The position numbers and the translations under genes were made by a program. Of a DNA stretch of 33,238 nt, positions 1,153 to 5,858 are shown piece by piece; within the stretch, counting starts at the first letter, position 1; the number at the start of each line of letters is the position of its first letter. The notes under the pieces are model-generated. The model worked only from the letters and a program-made list of their open reading frames with translations, ran no database searches and was not told the origin of the DNA. The DNA lies in IMG/VR virus record IMGVR_UViG_3300045256_000126, positions 1-33,238 of that record; one strand, 5' to 3'. The DNA comes from a virus.

Positions 1153-3564
1153 ATGACCGAGCACATGCGGCGCAGGCGGGGGCGCTCCAGCAAAAACCCG
1201 CCCAGCCAGGAGGACGTGATGCGCGAGCGGCGCCGCCAGGTGAAGCAGGCGGAGCGCGCAGAAAAGCGCATCGAACAGGTCAGGGACAGGAACATCGAGG
1301 TCGACTGGAGCCCGCAGGAGGGACCGCAGACTGCGTTCATCCATTGCACGTGGGCAGACGAGATATTCTTCGGCGGCGCCAGAGGCGGCGGCAAGACCGA
1401 CGCCGTGCTCGGCAAGCTGCTGATCAAGGCCCTCATGTTCGAGAAGTACATGAAGGGCATCGTCTTTCGGCGGGAGATGCCACAACTCGAAGCGATCATA
1501 GCGCGCGCCAAGGAGATGTTCTGCCCGCATGGCGCTGAGTTCAGGGAGCAGCAGAAGATCTTTCGCTTCCCGAACGGGGCGACGATCAAGTTCCGGTTTC
1601 TGGATCGCGATACGGATGCCGAGAAGTACCAGGGTCACGATTATTGCGTGGCCGTTGGTACGCCCGTCCTCATGGCTGACGGCTCATACAAGCCTATTGA
1701 GCGGGTTGTTGTCGGGGATCTGGTTGCGACGTTGGAGGGGCCGAAACGTGTACTGAGGACAACCGTGCCTTACGAGGCCGAGTGTGTCGAGTACCGGGTG
1801 CGGGACCGCGCCGGGAACTTGGTTGGTCAGCAAGTTCATCCGATAACACACCCTGTGCTCTCCAGCGTCGAATTGCTCTCGAAACCGGACATGGGTCAGT
1901 CCCAGAATGGCGGGCGGCAGATCCCATTCCGTCAGTCCTGGCAATCCGTATTACGTCATCCCGCACTGCATCTAATCCGTAAGGGCGTAGGCGCTTTGTT
2001 AGAAGGTGATCGAAGCGATCATGGAGTGTTTGCGGATGGACGCCCGGCACCTGGGCAGCTACTGCTGTTGTCCGTCCCTGTAGTGCTGCACGCGGGAAAA
2101 ATTGATGAACGACTTCATGATCCTCGAGGAGACGCCAGAGGTGTCGTTCCATCACCAATCGATGTTGGGGGACATGTCCCCGAGAGCTCGCTTTGGGATG
2201 AAACGGGCAATATTCCCGGATATGACCCCAGGCCGTCTTTTGCGTATATCCACCCCTATACCGGAGAGCTGCGGCACATAACAGCTCGTACGGAATTGGG
2301 TCATGCTGAAGTTTTTTACGTGGGTTCCGCATGGGTCTCGGATCTGACAGTTGACGGCGCAAATCACTACATAACGAGCAGTGGATTGGTCAATTGCAAT
2401 ACCGACATTGCAATCGAGGAGGCCGGAAATTTCCCGAACATCGCTCCGATCCTGAAGCTGAAAGGAACCCTGCGTTCAGCGCGCGGCGTGCCGTGCCAGA
2501 TGTACCTGACCGGCAACCCCGGCGGTCCCGGCCAAGGCTGGATTCGCTCGCGCTACATCGATCCCGCTCCGAACGGGTGGACTCCGATCCGGACGACGGA
2601 GCGCCGGCGGTTGCCGAACGGCAAGACGGTCGACGTTCAGAACACGCGCATCTATATCCCGAGCCGCATCACCGACAATCGCATCCTCCTGGAGAATGAT
2701 CCAGGCTATATCTCACGCCTGGCTGAGGTCGGCTCCGAGCAGCTTGTGCGCGCATGGCTGGAGGGCGATTTTTGGGCCATCGAGGGCGCCTTCTATCCCG
2801 AATACGACCCGCGCCGTCACGTCATCCCGCCTTGCGAGCTGCCGGGTTACTGGATGCGCTTTCGTGCCATCGACTGGGGCTCCTACTATCCGTTCGGGGT
2901 GCTCTGGTTTGCAGTGGCATCCGAGGATTGGGAACACCCCACAACCGGCACGCTGATACCGCGCGGGGCGCTGGTTGCGTACCGTGAGTGGTACGGCGTG
3001 CGCCGCAAGCTGGACGGCACAGTCGAAGCCAATAGGGGTTGCAAGCTCACGGCTGAGCAGGTTGCCAATGGCATCCTGCGCATGGAGATCCGTGGCGAGA
3101 AGCCGTCCTATACCGTCATGGACCCCAGCGCCTTCTCGGTGCAGTCGGGACCCTCCATTGCCGAGCGTATGCGCCGGCGCGGCGTGCCCTGCCGGCGGGC
3201 GGACAACAAGCGCTCGGCCACCAATGGCGCCATGTCCGGCCATGATCAGGTTCGCGCACGTCTGACTGGCGATGGTGATCCCGACGATCCGGACAATCGC
3301 GGCCGGCCGATGTTGTTCATCTTCCACCACTGTCATCACCTGATGCGTACGCTGCCCATGATGCAGCACGATCCGGACCATCCCGAGGACATGGCGAAAG
3401 AGGGTGAGGACCATCTTGTGGACGCCCTGCGCTATGGCTGCATGTCGCGTCCCTGGATACGCAAGAACCCGCGCGATATCCGGCTTCCCCGCTCCATCAA
3501 TGAAATGACGCTAGATGACCTGTGGGATAATGAGCGCTCGCCCCGTGTGGAGCAGTACTTTTGA
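1153..3564 (+). CDS. terL: Terminase large subunit, interrupted by an intein
   Basis: The 803-residue precursor contains about 551 residues of terminase and a 252-residue intein (165-416). The N-terminal ATPase has a Walker A-like GGARGGGKT (74-82), and Walker B is the DIAIEEAG strand starting at residue 418. The intein lies between Tyr164 and Thr417, so the spliced sequence reads GHDY-TDIAIEEAG, exactly the expected terminase motif. The C-terminal RNase H-like nuclease has Asp574 (AIDWGSYYPFG), Asp657 (VMDPSAF) and Asp757 (HLVDALRYG). The protein would pump DNA into the prohead through the portal and cut the concatemer. The Walker B interruption means an unspliced precursor should lack ATPase activity. 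The start ATG at 1153 has no strong ribosome-binding site and is probably coupled to the gene 3 bp upstream. Confidence 0.93.
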   Translation: MTEHMRRRRGRSSKNPPSQEDVMRERRRQVKQAERAEKRIEQVRDRNIEVDWSPQEGPQTAFIHCTWADEIFFGGARGGGKTDAVLGKLLIKALMFEKYMKGIVFRREMPQLEAIIARAKEMFCPHGAEFREQQKIFRFPNGATIKFRFLDRDTDAEKYQGHDYCVAVGTPVLMADGSYKPIERVVVGDLVATLEGPKRVLRTTVPYEAECVEYRVRDRAGNLVGQQVHPITHPVLSSVELLSKPDMGQSQNGGRQIPFRQSWQSVLRHPALHLIRKGVGALLEGDRSDHGVFADGRPAPGQLLLLSVPVVLHAGKIDERLHDPRGDARGVVPSPIDVGGHVPESSLWDETGNIPGYDPRPSFAYIHPYTGELRHITARTELGHAEVFYVGSAWVSDLTVDGANHYITSSGLVNCNTDIAIEEAGNFPNIAPILKLKGTLRSARGVPCQMYLTGNPGGPGQGWIRSRYIDPAPNGWTPIRTTERRRLPNGKTVDVQNTRIYIPSRITDNRILLENDPGYISRLAEVGSEQLVRAWLEGDFWAIEGAFYPEYDPRRHVIPPCELPGYWMRFRAIDWGSYYPFGVLWFAVASEDWEHPTTGTLIPRGALVAYREWYGVRRKLDGTVEANRGCKLTAEQVANGILRMEIRGEKPSYTVMDPSAFSVQSGPSIAERMRRRGVPCRRADNKRSATNGAMSGHDQVRARLTGDGDPDDPDNRGRPMLFIFHHCHHLMRTLPMMQHDPDHPEDMAKEGEDHLVDALRYGCMSRPWIRKNPRDIRLPRSINEMTLDDLWDNERSPRVEQYF
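1645..2400 (+). other. Class 1 intein in the terminase
   Basis: The intein runs from Cys165 to Asn416 of the terminase precursor, 252 residues. Block A is CVAVGTPVLMADGSYKPIE followed by VVVGDLV, a typical Hint start. Block B is around HPITHPVLSS (229-238). Blocks F and G are DLTVDGANHYITSSG and GLVNCN, followed by Thr417 as the +1 nucleophile. The terminal Asn is present, but the usual penultimate His is Cys415. The conserved splicing parts total only about 110 residues. The middle (about 240-383) has no similarity I recognise to a sense-strand endonuclease; on the complementary strand it encodes HNH-like sequence. Joining the flanks restores a normal terminase Walker B region. Confidence 0.9.
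1990..2290 (-). pseudogene. Antisense HNH homing endonuclease remnant inside the intein
   Basis: Read leftward, one frame gives segments typical of phage HNH endonucleases: EYCPFHPKASSRGH (about 2235-2190), then HRLVMERHLWRLLEDHEVVH (2164-2105). The latter matches the usual HRLVMExHLGRxLxxxEVVHH block, with the first catalytic His of the motif. After VHQ the same frame becomes unrelated. The neighbouring frame then gives ASIRKHSMIASIT (about 2045-2005), which resembles the segment normally found after the HNH core. At least one indel, probably several, has therefore broken the gene. The sense strand stays open because it must be translated as intein linker. Limits are approximate and the N-terminus is undefined. 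Confidence 0.6.
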
Positions 3565-3572
3565 GGCCGGTG

Positions 3573-5858
3573 ATGGCGCGCAAGCCGAAGTCCAACCCCA
3601 ATCAGGAGACCCAGGACTCTGCCTCGCCGCAGATGACTGATGTCGAGCGCTGGCTGCGCGAGATCGAGGATGCAAAGAAGGCATCGCGCGACTGGCACGA
3701 CAGCTGCAAGCGCATCGTCGAGCGCTACCGCGACATCCGCAACGAGGCCACCGCCGCCAACGGTCAGAAGATCATTTCCCAGCGGCGCTATAACGTGCTC
3801 TGGTCGATCATGCAGACCATGCAGCCGCTGGTCTATAGCGATCCGCCGCAGCCCTACATCTCCCGCCGGCACAACGACAAGGATCCCGTGGCGCGCGACG
3901 CCTCCATGCTCCTGCAGCGCGCGCTTGCCTACAGCCTCGACGGCGATACGCTCCACGACGCATTGACCGAGGCACGCGACGACTACCTGCTCACATCCCG
4001 CGGCGTCGTCTGGCATAAGTACACGCCCTATTTCCGTCTGCGTGAGAGCGAAGACAAGACTTACGTCGACAATCCGAAGGACGTTCCCGAAGGAGCCGAA
4101 CCGCAGCGCGACGACAGGGGACTCTATTTCCGCAAGCAGTATGACGAGAAGATATATGAGGAGTGCGAAGTAGAGCACGTCCTTTACTCCGACTTCCTGC
4201 ACGGCGCCGCCTCGAAGTGGCGCTATGTGCCGTGGGTTGCCCGCCGTGTTCCGATGACGCGGAAGGAGCAGATCAAGCGTTTCGGCTCGAAGATGGGCCG
4301 TGTCGCCCCGTTGACGATCCACGTCACGGACGCCAAGCAGGAGATGCATGACAAGACCCTGAACACGGATGATGCCAAGGGCCTGTTTGCGAAGTCTGAG
4401 ATATGGGAGATTTGGGACAAGACCACCCGCAAGGTGATGTGGCTTTGTCCGCAGTACAAGGACGGTTTTCTCGACGAGAAGGACGACATCCTCGAGCTCG
4501 ACGGGTTCTTTCCCTGCCCGAAGCCGGCCTATGGCACCAAGACGAACGACACACTCGAGCCTGTCCCTGATCCCAAGGAGTGGCAGGATATCGCCATGGA
4601 GCTCGATGAGGTCACGCAGCGCATCAAGCTGCTGACCCAGGCTCTCCGTGTCGTTGGCGCTTACGACGCGCAGATCGGGGACATTCTCAAGAGAATCCTG
4701 ACGCAAACTGATGAAAACGATCTGATCCCGATTGAGAACTGGCCGCAGTTCTCAGAGCAGGGAGGTTTCGAGAGCGCCATTGCATGGTTTCCCATTGAGC
4801 AGATCATGGTTGCTCTGGAGAAGCTGCATCAAGCCCGCGCGCGCCTCCTGCAGGAGCTCTACGACATCACCGGCATTGCCGACATCATCCGCGGCAACAG
4901 CGATCCGCGAGAGACCGCCAAGGCACAGCAGATCAAGGGCAACTTCGCCAGCAAGCGGCTGGCACAGCGCCAGAAGGAGATCGCGCGCATGGCGCGTGAG
5001 TCTCTGGAGATCAAGGCGCAGATCATCTGCAAGCACTACAGCGACGACTATATCCGCGAGATCAGTTCGGCAGAGCAGGTTCTGGTCGACGCTCAGGGCC
5101 AGTTCGATGTGAACCGCTTCGCTGCAGCGCTGCAGCTGCTGCGCAGCGCGCCGTTGCGCCGGTTCCGCATCAAGATCGACGAGAAGAGTCTGGCGCAGAA
5201 CTCGTTGGAGGAGGACCGCGAGGAGCGTGTCGCCTTCATGCAGGGCATGTCTCAGCTCCTGAGCGCTGCGATCCCCATGGGCCAGCAGTTCCCCGGCATG
5301 CTCCCGCTCCTGGGGGAGCTCATCCAGCTCGCAGTGCGCGGCTTCCCGATTGCCCGGTCGGTCGAGTCGGCAATCCAGGAAGCCATCGATCAGATGCGCA
5401 CTACACCCCCGCCCGCTCCGCAGCAGGGGCAGCAGGGCTCCGGGCAGCGTCCTCCGACCCCGGAGGAGATGGATATCGAGCGCAAGAAGCTCGATCTCGA
5501 AGGCCAGCGTCTCGGCATCGAGCGGCAGAAGCTGCTGCTGCAGGAGAAGCAGATGCAGAACGACTTCCAGTTGCGCGTCATCGAACTTCAGATGCGACAG
5601 GTCAACAAGGCGCGTGAGAATGACATACGCGCCGGCAAGGTCGTCAGCGACGCTCAGGCCAAGGTGCAGCAGCTCAACCAGCAGCAGCAGCAGTCGGACC
5701 AGCAGGCCGCCACCGAGCAGATGCGTATGGCGCACGAGAGCGAGCAGGCTGAGAGGGATCGCATGCAGGCGCGGGAGAGTGAGCAGACGCAGCTCGCGGA
5801 GCGTGAGCGTGATGCTGCGCGCGCTGCATTCCGTACTGGTCAGAACAGGGCAGCGTGA
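3573..5858 (+). CDS. Portal protein (head-tail connector)
   Basis: A 761-residue protein starting at the ATG at 3573, with GAGG six bases upstream; a TTG 12 bases earlier is less likely. The core (about residues 20-560) looks like a podovirus-type portal: an N-terminal basic helical region, a segment with QTMQPLVYSDPPQPY, and a conserved-looking ITGIADIIRGNSDPRETAKA near residue 435. The last 140 residues are Gln-rich and charged, predicted as long coiled coil, like the barrel extension of large podoviral portals. It sits directly after the large terminase, its partner. It would form the dodecameric ring through which DNA enters and leaves the capsid. Confidence 0.85.
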   Translation: MARKPKSNPNQETQDSASPQMTDVERWLREIEDAKKASRDWHDSCKRIVERYRDIRNEATAANGQKIISQRRYNVLWSIMQTMQPLVYSDPPQPYISRRHNDKDPVARDASMLLQRALAYSLDGDTLHDALTEARDDYLLTSRGVVWHKYTPYFRLRESEDKTYVDNPKDVPEGAEPQRDDRGLYFRKQYDEKIYEECEVEHVLYSDFLHGAASKWRYVPWVARRVPMTRKEQIKRFGSKMGRVAPLTIHVTDAKQEMHDKTLNTDDAKGLFAKSEIWEIWDKTTRKVMWLCPQYKDGFLDEKDDILELDGFFPCPKPAYGTKTNDTLEPVPDPKEWQDIAMELDEVTQRIKLLTQALRVVGAYDAQIGDILKRILTQTDENDLIPIENWPQFSEQGGFESAIAWFPIEQIMVALEKLHQARARLLQELYDITGIADIIRGNSDPRETAKAQQIKGNFASKRLAQRQKEIARMARESLEIKAQIICKHYSDDYIREISSAEQVLVDAQGQFDVNRFAAALQLLRSAPLRRFRIKIDEKSLAQNSLEEDREERVAFMQGMSQLLSAAIPMGQQFPGMLPLLGELIQLAVRGFPIARSVESAIQEAIDQMRTTPPPAPQQGQQGSGQRPPTPEEMDIERKKLDLEGQRLGIERQKLLLQEKQMQNDFQLRVIELQMRQVNKARENDIRAGKVVSDAQAKVQQLNQQQQQSDQQAATEQMRMAHESEQAERDRMQARESEQTQLAERERDAARAAFRTGQNRAA

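Follow-up and report, generated by a model that had tools for sequence, protein, structure and literature searches.

The window analysed here, a stretch of 33,238 nucleotides that makes up an entire IMG/VR virus record (IMGVR_UViG_3300045256_000126), very likely contains a terminase large subunit (TerL) intein that belongs, in decayed form, to a family of such phage inteins whose homing endonuclease is encoded on the antisense strand. We propose that these 'reverse-HEN inteins' are probably a mobile-element class of their own: the genes for the splicing domain and for the nuclease are separate, lie on opposite strands and have dual-coding ends; the expression of the nuclease would be uncoupled from that of the late gene terL, and the unit would home as one. 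The current view treats an intein endonuclease as a domain in frame with the intein, whereas here two overlapping genes occupy opposite strands, and the family was found across TerLs of greatly differing sequence.

The terminase intein of the window

The ORF at 1153–3564 (+) encodes a TerL precursor of 803 amino acids, in which both exteins match PHROG terminase large subunit families. Between these two terminase-matching ends lies a stretch that starts with CVAVGTPVLMADG and finishes with DLTVDGANHYITSSGLVNCN. When the exteins are joined (GHDY|TDIAIEEAGN), they align as a single piece to the TerL of Pseudanabaena phage Pam5, which has no intein (46% identity, E=2e-122). Since the ends of the ORF are terminase and the joined exteins align in one piece, positions 1645–2400 (+) constitute an intein, in keeping with the initial annotation, which had read the sense strand of its central part as intein linker. 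The intein comprises 252 amino acids, from the Cys1 codon at 1645–1647 to the last Asn codon at 2398–2400 in GLVNCN, and is followed by Thr+1; alignment, a Hom_end_hint match, and AF2 with Foldseek support the assignment.

Structure prediction with AF2 yielded two confident Hint halves (residues 1–70 and about 201–252, pLDDT 82–97) separated by a middle part that is mostly disordered. The N-terminal half (1645–1872, +; pLDDT 91–97 over residues 1–70) contains block A and the block-B His69, encoded at 1849–1851, and the C-terminal half (2239–2400, +; pLDDT 82–95 over residues 201–252) contains the HPY motif (2251–2259) and block F/G. The linker (1873–2238, +), which is the sense translation of the antisense gene, has no family homologue and a pLDDT mostly of 40–58, with one better segment at residues 131–150. 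Foldseek matched the model to the PI-SceI, gp41-1 and RecA inteins.

Residues C1, G5, T6, D12, G13, H69, D233, H241 and N252 are invariant across the aligned inteins. The block A and B residues of a Cys1-type Hint domain (C1, G5, T6 and H69) are therefore present, in agreement with the fold match, as is the C-terminal Asn; the +1 residue is Thr in the window and Ser, Thr or Cys in the relatives. The usual penultimate His is absent throughout the family, its place being taken by Cys in the window intein and by Lys, Gln or Arg in the relatives. Penultimate residues other than His are known among inteins, and the lack of this His is not exclusionary. The window intein is best described as a Cys1-type Hint intein that is predicted to splice. 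The window intein and the inteins of loci L003–L078 all share, without variation, the HPY motif of the C-terminal Hint half.

The antisense gene and its relatives

The minus strand of the intein, which encodes CPFHPKASSRGHVPQHRLVMERHLWRLLEDHEVVH, contains a still open ORF of 222 codons (2362–1694, −). Its translation matches phrog_20891, 'HNH endonuclease' (E=1.2e-7), and phrog_10730 (E=7.9e-6), with a Pfam HTH_28 match (E=3.1e-5) farther downstream. The antisense HNH signal reported by the initial annotation is thus real: a leftward frame matches HNH families far above chance, and intact homologues exist. The feature is larger than the 1990–2290 given there and extends over 1694–2362.

Three parts of a nuclease gene, all in one frame, can be recognized in this ORF. 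The N-terminal half of the HNH domain (RYRGGYTQKTAWGHIREYCPFHP..QHRLVMERHLWRLLEDHEVVHQ; 2102–2257, −) is defined by the phrog_20891 match over residues 36–87 and by alignments, and the remnant of a first HTH (AALQGRTTAVAAQVPGVHPQTLHDRFDHLLTKR; 1991–2089, −) by alignment to intact relatives. The remnant of a second HTH (1811–1948, −) corresponds to the HTH_28 match at ORF residues 139–184, and runs at its end into the sequence that encodes Hint block B on the opposite strand. ALQGRTTAVAAQVPGVHPQTLHDRFDHLLTKR and RIARTDGMGSAARHSG..VSRAIRRWRAQG, in the HRLVMERHLW frame, align to the two HTH regions of the intact relatives.

Alignment with L020, L021, L055, L019 and L005 places the junction of an in-frame deletion at approximately 2090–2105 (−), where about 85–90 codons are gone. 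The window copy is collinear with the intact relatives in one frame as far as EVVH, and after the gap the same frame continues with AALQGRTTAVAAQVPGVHPQTLHDRFDHLLTKR and the second HTH. The closest intact relative is that of L020 (HDPIPSELLDAAALRYRGGYTQKTAAGYVREYNPFH..QHRLVMERHLGRLLTDQEVVHHRNGDRADN). The deletion took the N...N...H part of the HNH domain, that is, its second half with the last His, together with the segment after it, and three family-conserved residues are altered in the remaining half (Y to H, G to W, and the second H of HH to Q). With the second His replaced by Gln, and the Asn and last His deleted, the HH...N...H active site is incomplete, and the window copy is therefore a relic. 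The deletion is in frame on the sense strand too, so the intein stays open. The gene is indeed broken, as the initial annotation had it, and decayed; the downstream pieces were assigned there to another frame, but the two HTH regions lie in the same frame beyond the deletion. A frameshift was rejected, since one frame can be aligned over the whole length once the deletion is allowed for, and 'ASIRKHSMIASIT' was rejected as a piece of the antisense gene because it belongs to a spurious frame. L002 (IMGVR_UViG_3300045107_000146) does not differ from the window in the part compared, and the deletion is thus present in a second assembly; the two perhaps come from the same virus population.

A search of IMG/VR with seven sense inteins yielded 80 loci. 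About 55 of them carry an antisense HNH ORF, mostly of 215–333 codons and shorter only at contig ends. The TerL ORF around it has no stop in the sense frame all the way between Hint N and Hint C. The intein of each full member occupies the homologous TerL Walker-B site (YQGHxY|...|T/S...EE or PHDLI|...|CFDE). The phase of the nuclease was identical in all 30 representatives checked, with antisense positions 1, 2 and 3 on sense positions 1, 3 and 2. These antisense proteins are diverse, and some of the 30 members have a GC content of 39–48%; all 30 match Pfam HNH_3, their HH, N, N and H residues do not vary, and the complete HH...N...H active site is present in the 30 aligned intact relatives. 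The model of the L004 antisense protein has a mean pLDDT of 84.8, and its nearest solved fold is an I-HmuI-like HNH (weak E-value of 0.11, probability 0.99).

A search anchored on the nuclease used two sub-alignments, the profile of all 30 nucleases being too divergent for a pattern search, and retrieved 74 loci, every one of them antisense inside a Hint intein ORF. De-duplication on the central 300 bases left 71 variants. All family members found are uncultivated virus contigs. Among cultured phages, the antisense query gave partial-coverage HNH homologues only, whose coverage of the query stayed below 80% in every case, and no close relative of the intact sense inteins was present in 50,697 GenBank phage records. 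Bacterial genomes contained at least 75 Hint loci, none with this nuclease among the matches listed.

Besides these intact ORFs, the family includes loci in which the nuclease is more decayed than in the window, as in L003, where a 95-codon HTH remnant is left, or absent altogether, as in the mini-inteins of L008, L010 and L011. Relatives of both kinds that the initial annotation had suggested looking for, with the antisense gene intact and without it, therefore exist, and the mini-inteins and remnants complete a decay series. In L065 (817–1752, −), the HTH segments of the antisense nuclease are duplicated internally, and three stretches match the profile. The L049 locus has a second HNH-like ORF region downstream (2277–2834, +), and its extein junction looks chimeric, with unrelated sequence before NQGQNL.

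Mobility and proposed mechanism

In several pairs of the L004 group, the inteins are 94–98% identical, while the TerL flanks are only about 72–78% identical. The identity shifts at the intein edges, and the high-identity part includes the first 120 bases of Hint, which lie outside the nuclease gene. The TerL family of L036 is represented by 79 contigs, 70 of which lack the intein and have an exact empty site, such as DAEKYQGQNL|SHCAIEEAGN. Such high intein identity between diverged TerLs, together with the 70 precise empty sites, indirectly indicates homing as a unit, in which the element spreads into empty sites with intein and nuclease together. Distances between the Hint domains are correlated with those between the HNH proteins (rho 0.90), which would be expected if both move and age as one unit.

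These data make it improbable that a free-standing HNH gene recently and independently invaded a mini-intein, where it would be a passenger unlinked to intein mobility. Free-standing HNH homologues are present in cultured phages, and the mini-inteins of L008, L010 and L011 lack the gene, both of which are compatible with such an event. However, the nuclease is found at a single site, in a single orientation and phase, over very divergent TerLs; its distances co-vary with those of Hint, all 74 copies retrieved lie inside inteins, and intein and nuclease were transferred together. The isolated invasion envisaged by the initial annotation thus gives way to a large family in which site, orientation and phase are fixed.

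An antisense nuclease that is functional but does not drive homing, for instance one that acts in packaging or regulates terL in antisense, is just as unlikely. Its location in terL would suit such a role, and a passage in PMC11855218, citing other work, describes HNH proteins that assist terminases. Sporadic presence, exact empty sites and a high identity limited to the intein nevertheless argue against it, as do repeated loss and decay (the window, L003 and L008).

We therefore favor a homing unit with a reverse-strand nuclease. The sequences show that the plus strand reads as TerL, the Hint halves split by the linker, and TerL again, always open, while the minus strand over the linker has an HNH nuclease gene of constant phase whose product carries HTH DNA-binding domains at its C-terminus. 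Expression, splicing and cleavage are inferred, and we propose the following scheme for them. The TerL precursor would self-splice via Cys1, the final Asn and Ser, Thr or Cys at +1. The nuclease, produced separately from minus-strand transcription, would cut intein-free terL at the Walker-B site, and repair would copy the intein along with the nuclease gene on its reverse strand. Not being fused to the intein, the nuclease could be expressed apart from the late gene terL. A Shine–Dalgarno sequence, AAGGAG, lies 6 nt before an antisense ATG in L061, L068 and L073, and clear sites of this kind occur in some members only; a promoter scan upstream of the L004 antisense start found no sigma-70-like promoter. 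In the window, the in-frame deletion removed half of the HNH active site, so the nuclease is expected to be inactive. Splicing of the intein should persist, and the window may represent the degeneration stage of the homing cycle. The architecture would show a route by which an intein can gain an independently expressed nuclease.

Dual coding and relation to known systems

Thirty antisense proteins were recoded with synonymous codons at host usage, and 237 sense stops were expected in sum, as against 0 observed in the 30 members (P <= 0.007 for each member). In addition, 18 non-redundant gapless inteins of 1035 bp were compared pairwise by sense codon position. The diversity at sense positions 1/2/3 is.19/.11/.50 in HintN,.13/.27/.105 in the overlap and.04/.02/.27 in HintC, and about.19/.11/.51 in the exteins. 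The variable wobble position moves from sense position 3 to sense position 2, which is antisense position 3, exactly across the nuclease gene, and the antisense protein is therefore what selection sees there. In four further clades, 60–83% of the changes fall at antisense position 3. All three codon positions are quiet at intein positions 135–225 and 900–945, the stretches where the nuclease gene runs at one end into Hint block B and at the other into the HPY strand; both products appear to be constrained there.

The sense strand of 26 inteins matched Hint families only. Their middle part has no protein-family homologue and no sense-strand nuclease, so that the sense-strand counterpart of the linker, for which the initial annotation had suggested looking, was found in none of these relatives. 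Since the wobble of the nuclease falls on sense position 2, nearly all sense stops are avoidable by synonymous choice. The exception arises where the codon after Phe begins with A, and none of the 30 antisense proteins has Met, Asn, Lys, Ile or Thr directly after Phe. The intact relatives, the stop avoidance and the codon-position flip uphold the earlier suggestion that the sense frame is forced to stay open while the other strand carries a nuclease. A chance antisense resemblance, with the sense linker as the real protein and the HNH as a coincidence of high-GC sequence, is exceedingly improbable: the GC-rich window does contain many long antisense ORFs, but full-length HNH and HTH domains with an invariant active site recur in 30 diverse members, those with a GC content of 39–48% included, the wobble flip together with the conserved HNH residues refutes it, and the sense middle is mostly predicted to be disordered and lacks a homologue.

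The family provides a naturally occurring and well-replicated example of extended antisense dual coding: selection acts at the protein level on one strand, while the other has only to remain free of stops. Inteins that appear HEN-less or are listed with a 'linker' in databases may likewise hide nucleases on the opposite strand.

I-HmuI, the HNH enzyme of a group I intron, has the nearest solved fold and is likewise a separate nuclease product from within a splicing element, although its host element is an RNA intron and not an intein. In the split inteins of 'fractured genes', a free-standing endonuclease ORF lies between the intein halves; those genes are physically split, whereas the sense ORF of the TerL element is continuous and overlaps the nuclease gene. 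Canonical HEN inteins such as PI-SceI (LAGLIDADG) share with the TerL element a nuclease between the Hint halves and a site in a conserved host motif. Their nuclease, however, is a sense in-frame domain, as is the HNH_3 of the cyanophage CL131 dCTP deaminase intein (PMC6293099), and not a separate reverse-strand gene. Mycobacteriophage TerL inteins also reside in the terminase ATPase domain, including the Walker-B site (TerL1-e), and splicing was shown for TerL inteins; the sections of that report consulted here mention no antisense HNH, and nuclease activity, where shown, matched the intein's own HEN domain (PMC5050341).

The closest published precedent is the ShiLan domain, a 'hidden' HNH encoded out of frame within phage DNA methylase genes (PMC11855218, Genes 2025). 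In both cases, an HNH homing gene lies in a host ORF that stays open, its presence is sporadic and the in-frame product has no assigned function. ShiLan, however, is encoded on the same strand in the third frame, and no splicing domain was detected, hence the insert is thought to remain in the methylase (PMC11855218). The TerL element lies on the minus strand inside a Hint intein that is predicted to splice out. Because ShiLan differs in both strand and splicing domain, the TerL element represents a new architecture of homing inteins and not a ShiLan type. We found no antisense intein endonuclease in the literature searched, and a prior description may exist among the actinobacteriophage inteins of 'non-canonical architecture' (Gosselin et al., 10.1101/2025.01.02.630785).

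Other TerL inteins (GAWC...VVHN|C and relatives) contain an HNH gene on the same strand in another frame, always at offset 2 and with no sense stops. These loci (L074–L077, L079–L082, L085 and L088) encode Cys-rich zinc-finger-like repeats, and they are ShiLan-like, yet inside inteins. A mini-intein without the out-of-frame HNH gene occupies the L075/L088 TerL site in L086 (TerL ORF 2464–4389). Pairs of the same-strand HNH genes differ mostly at the third position of the HNH frame, for example 43/23/84.
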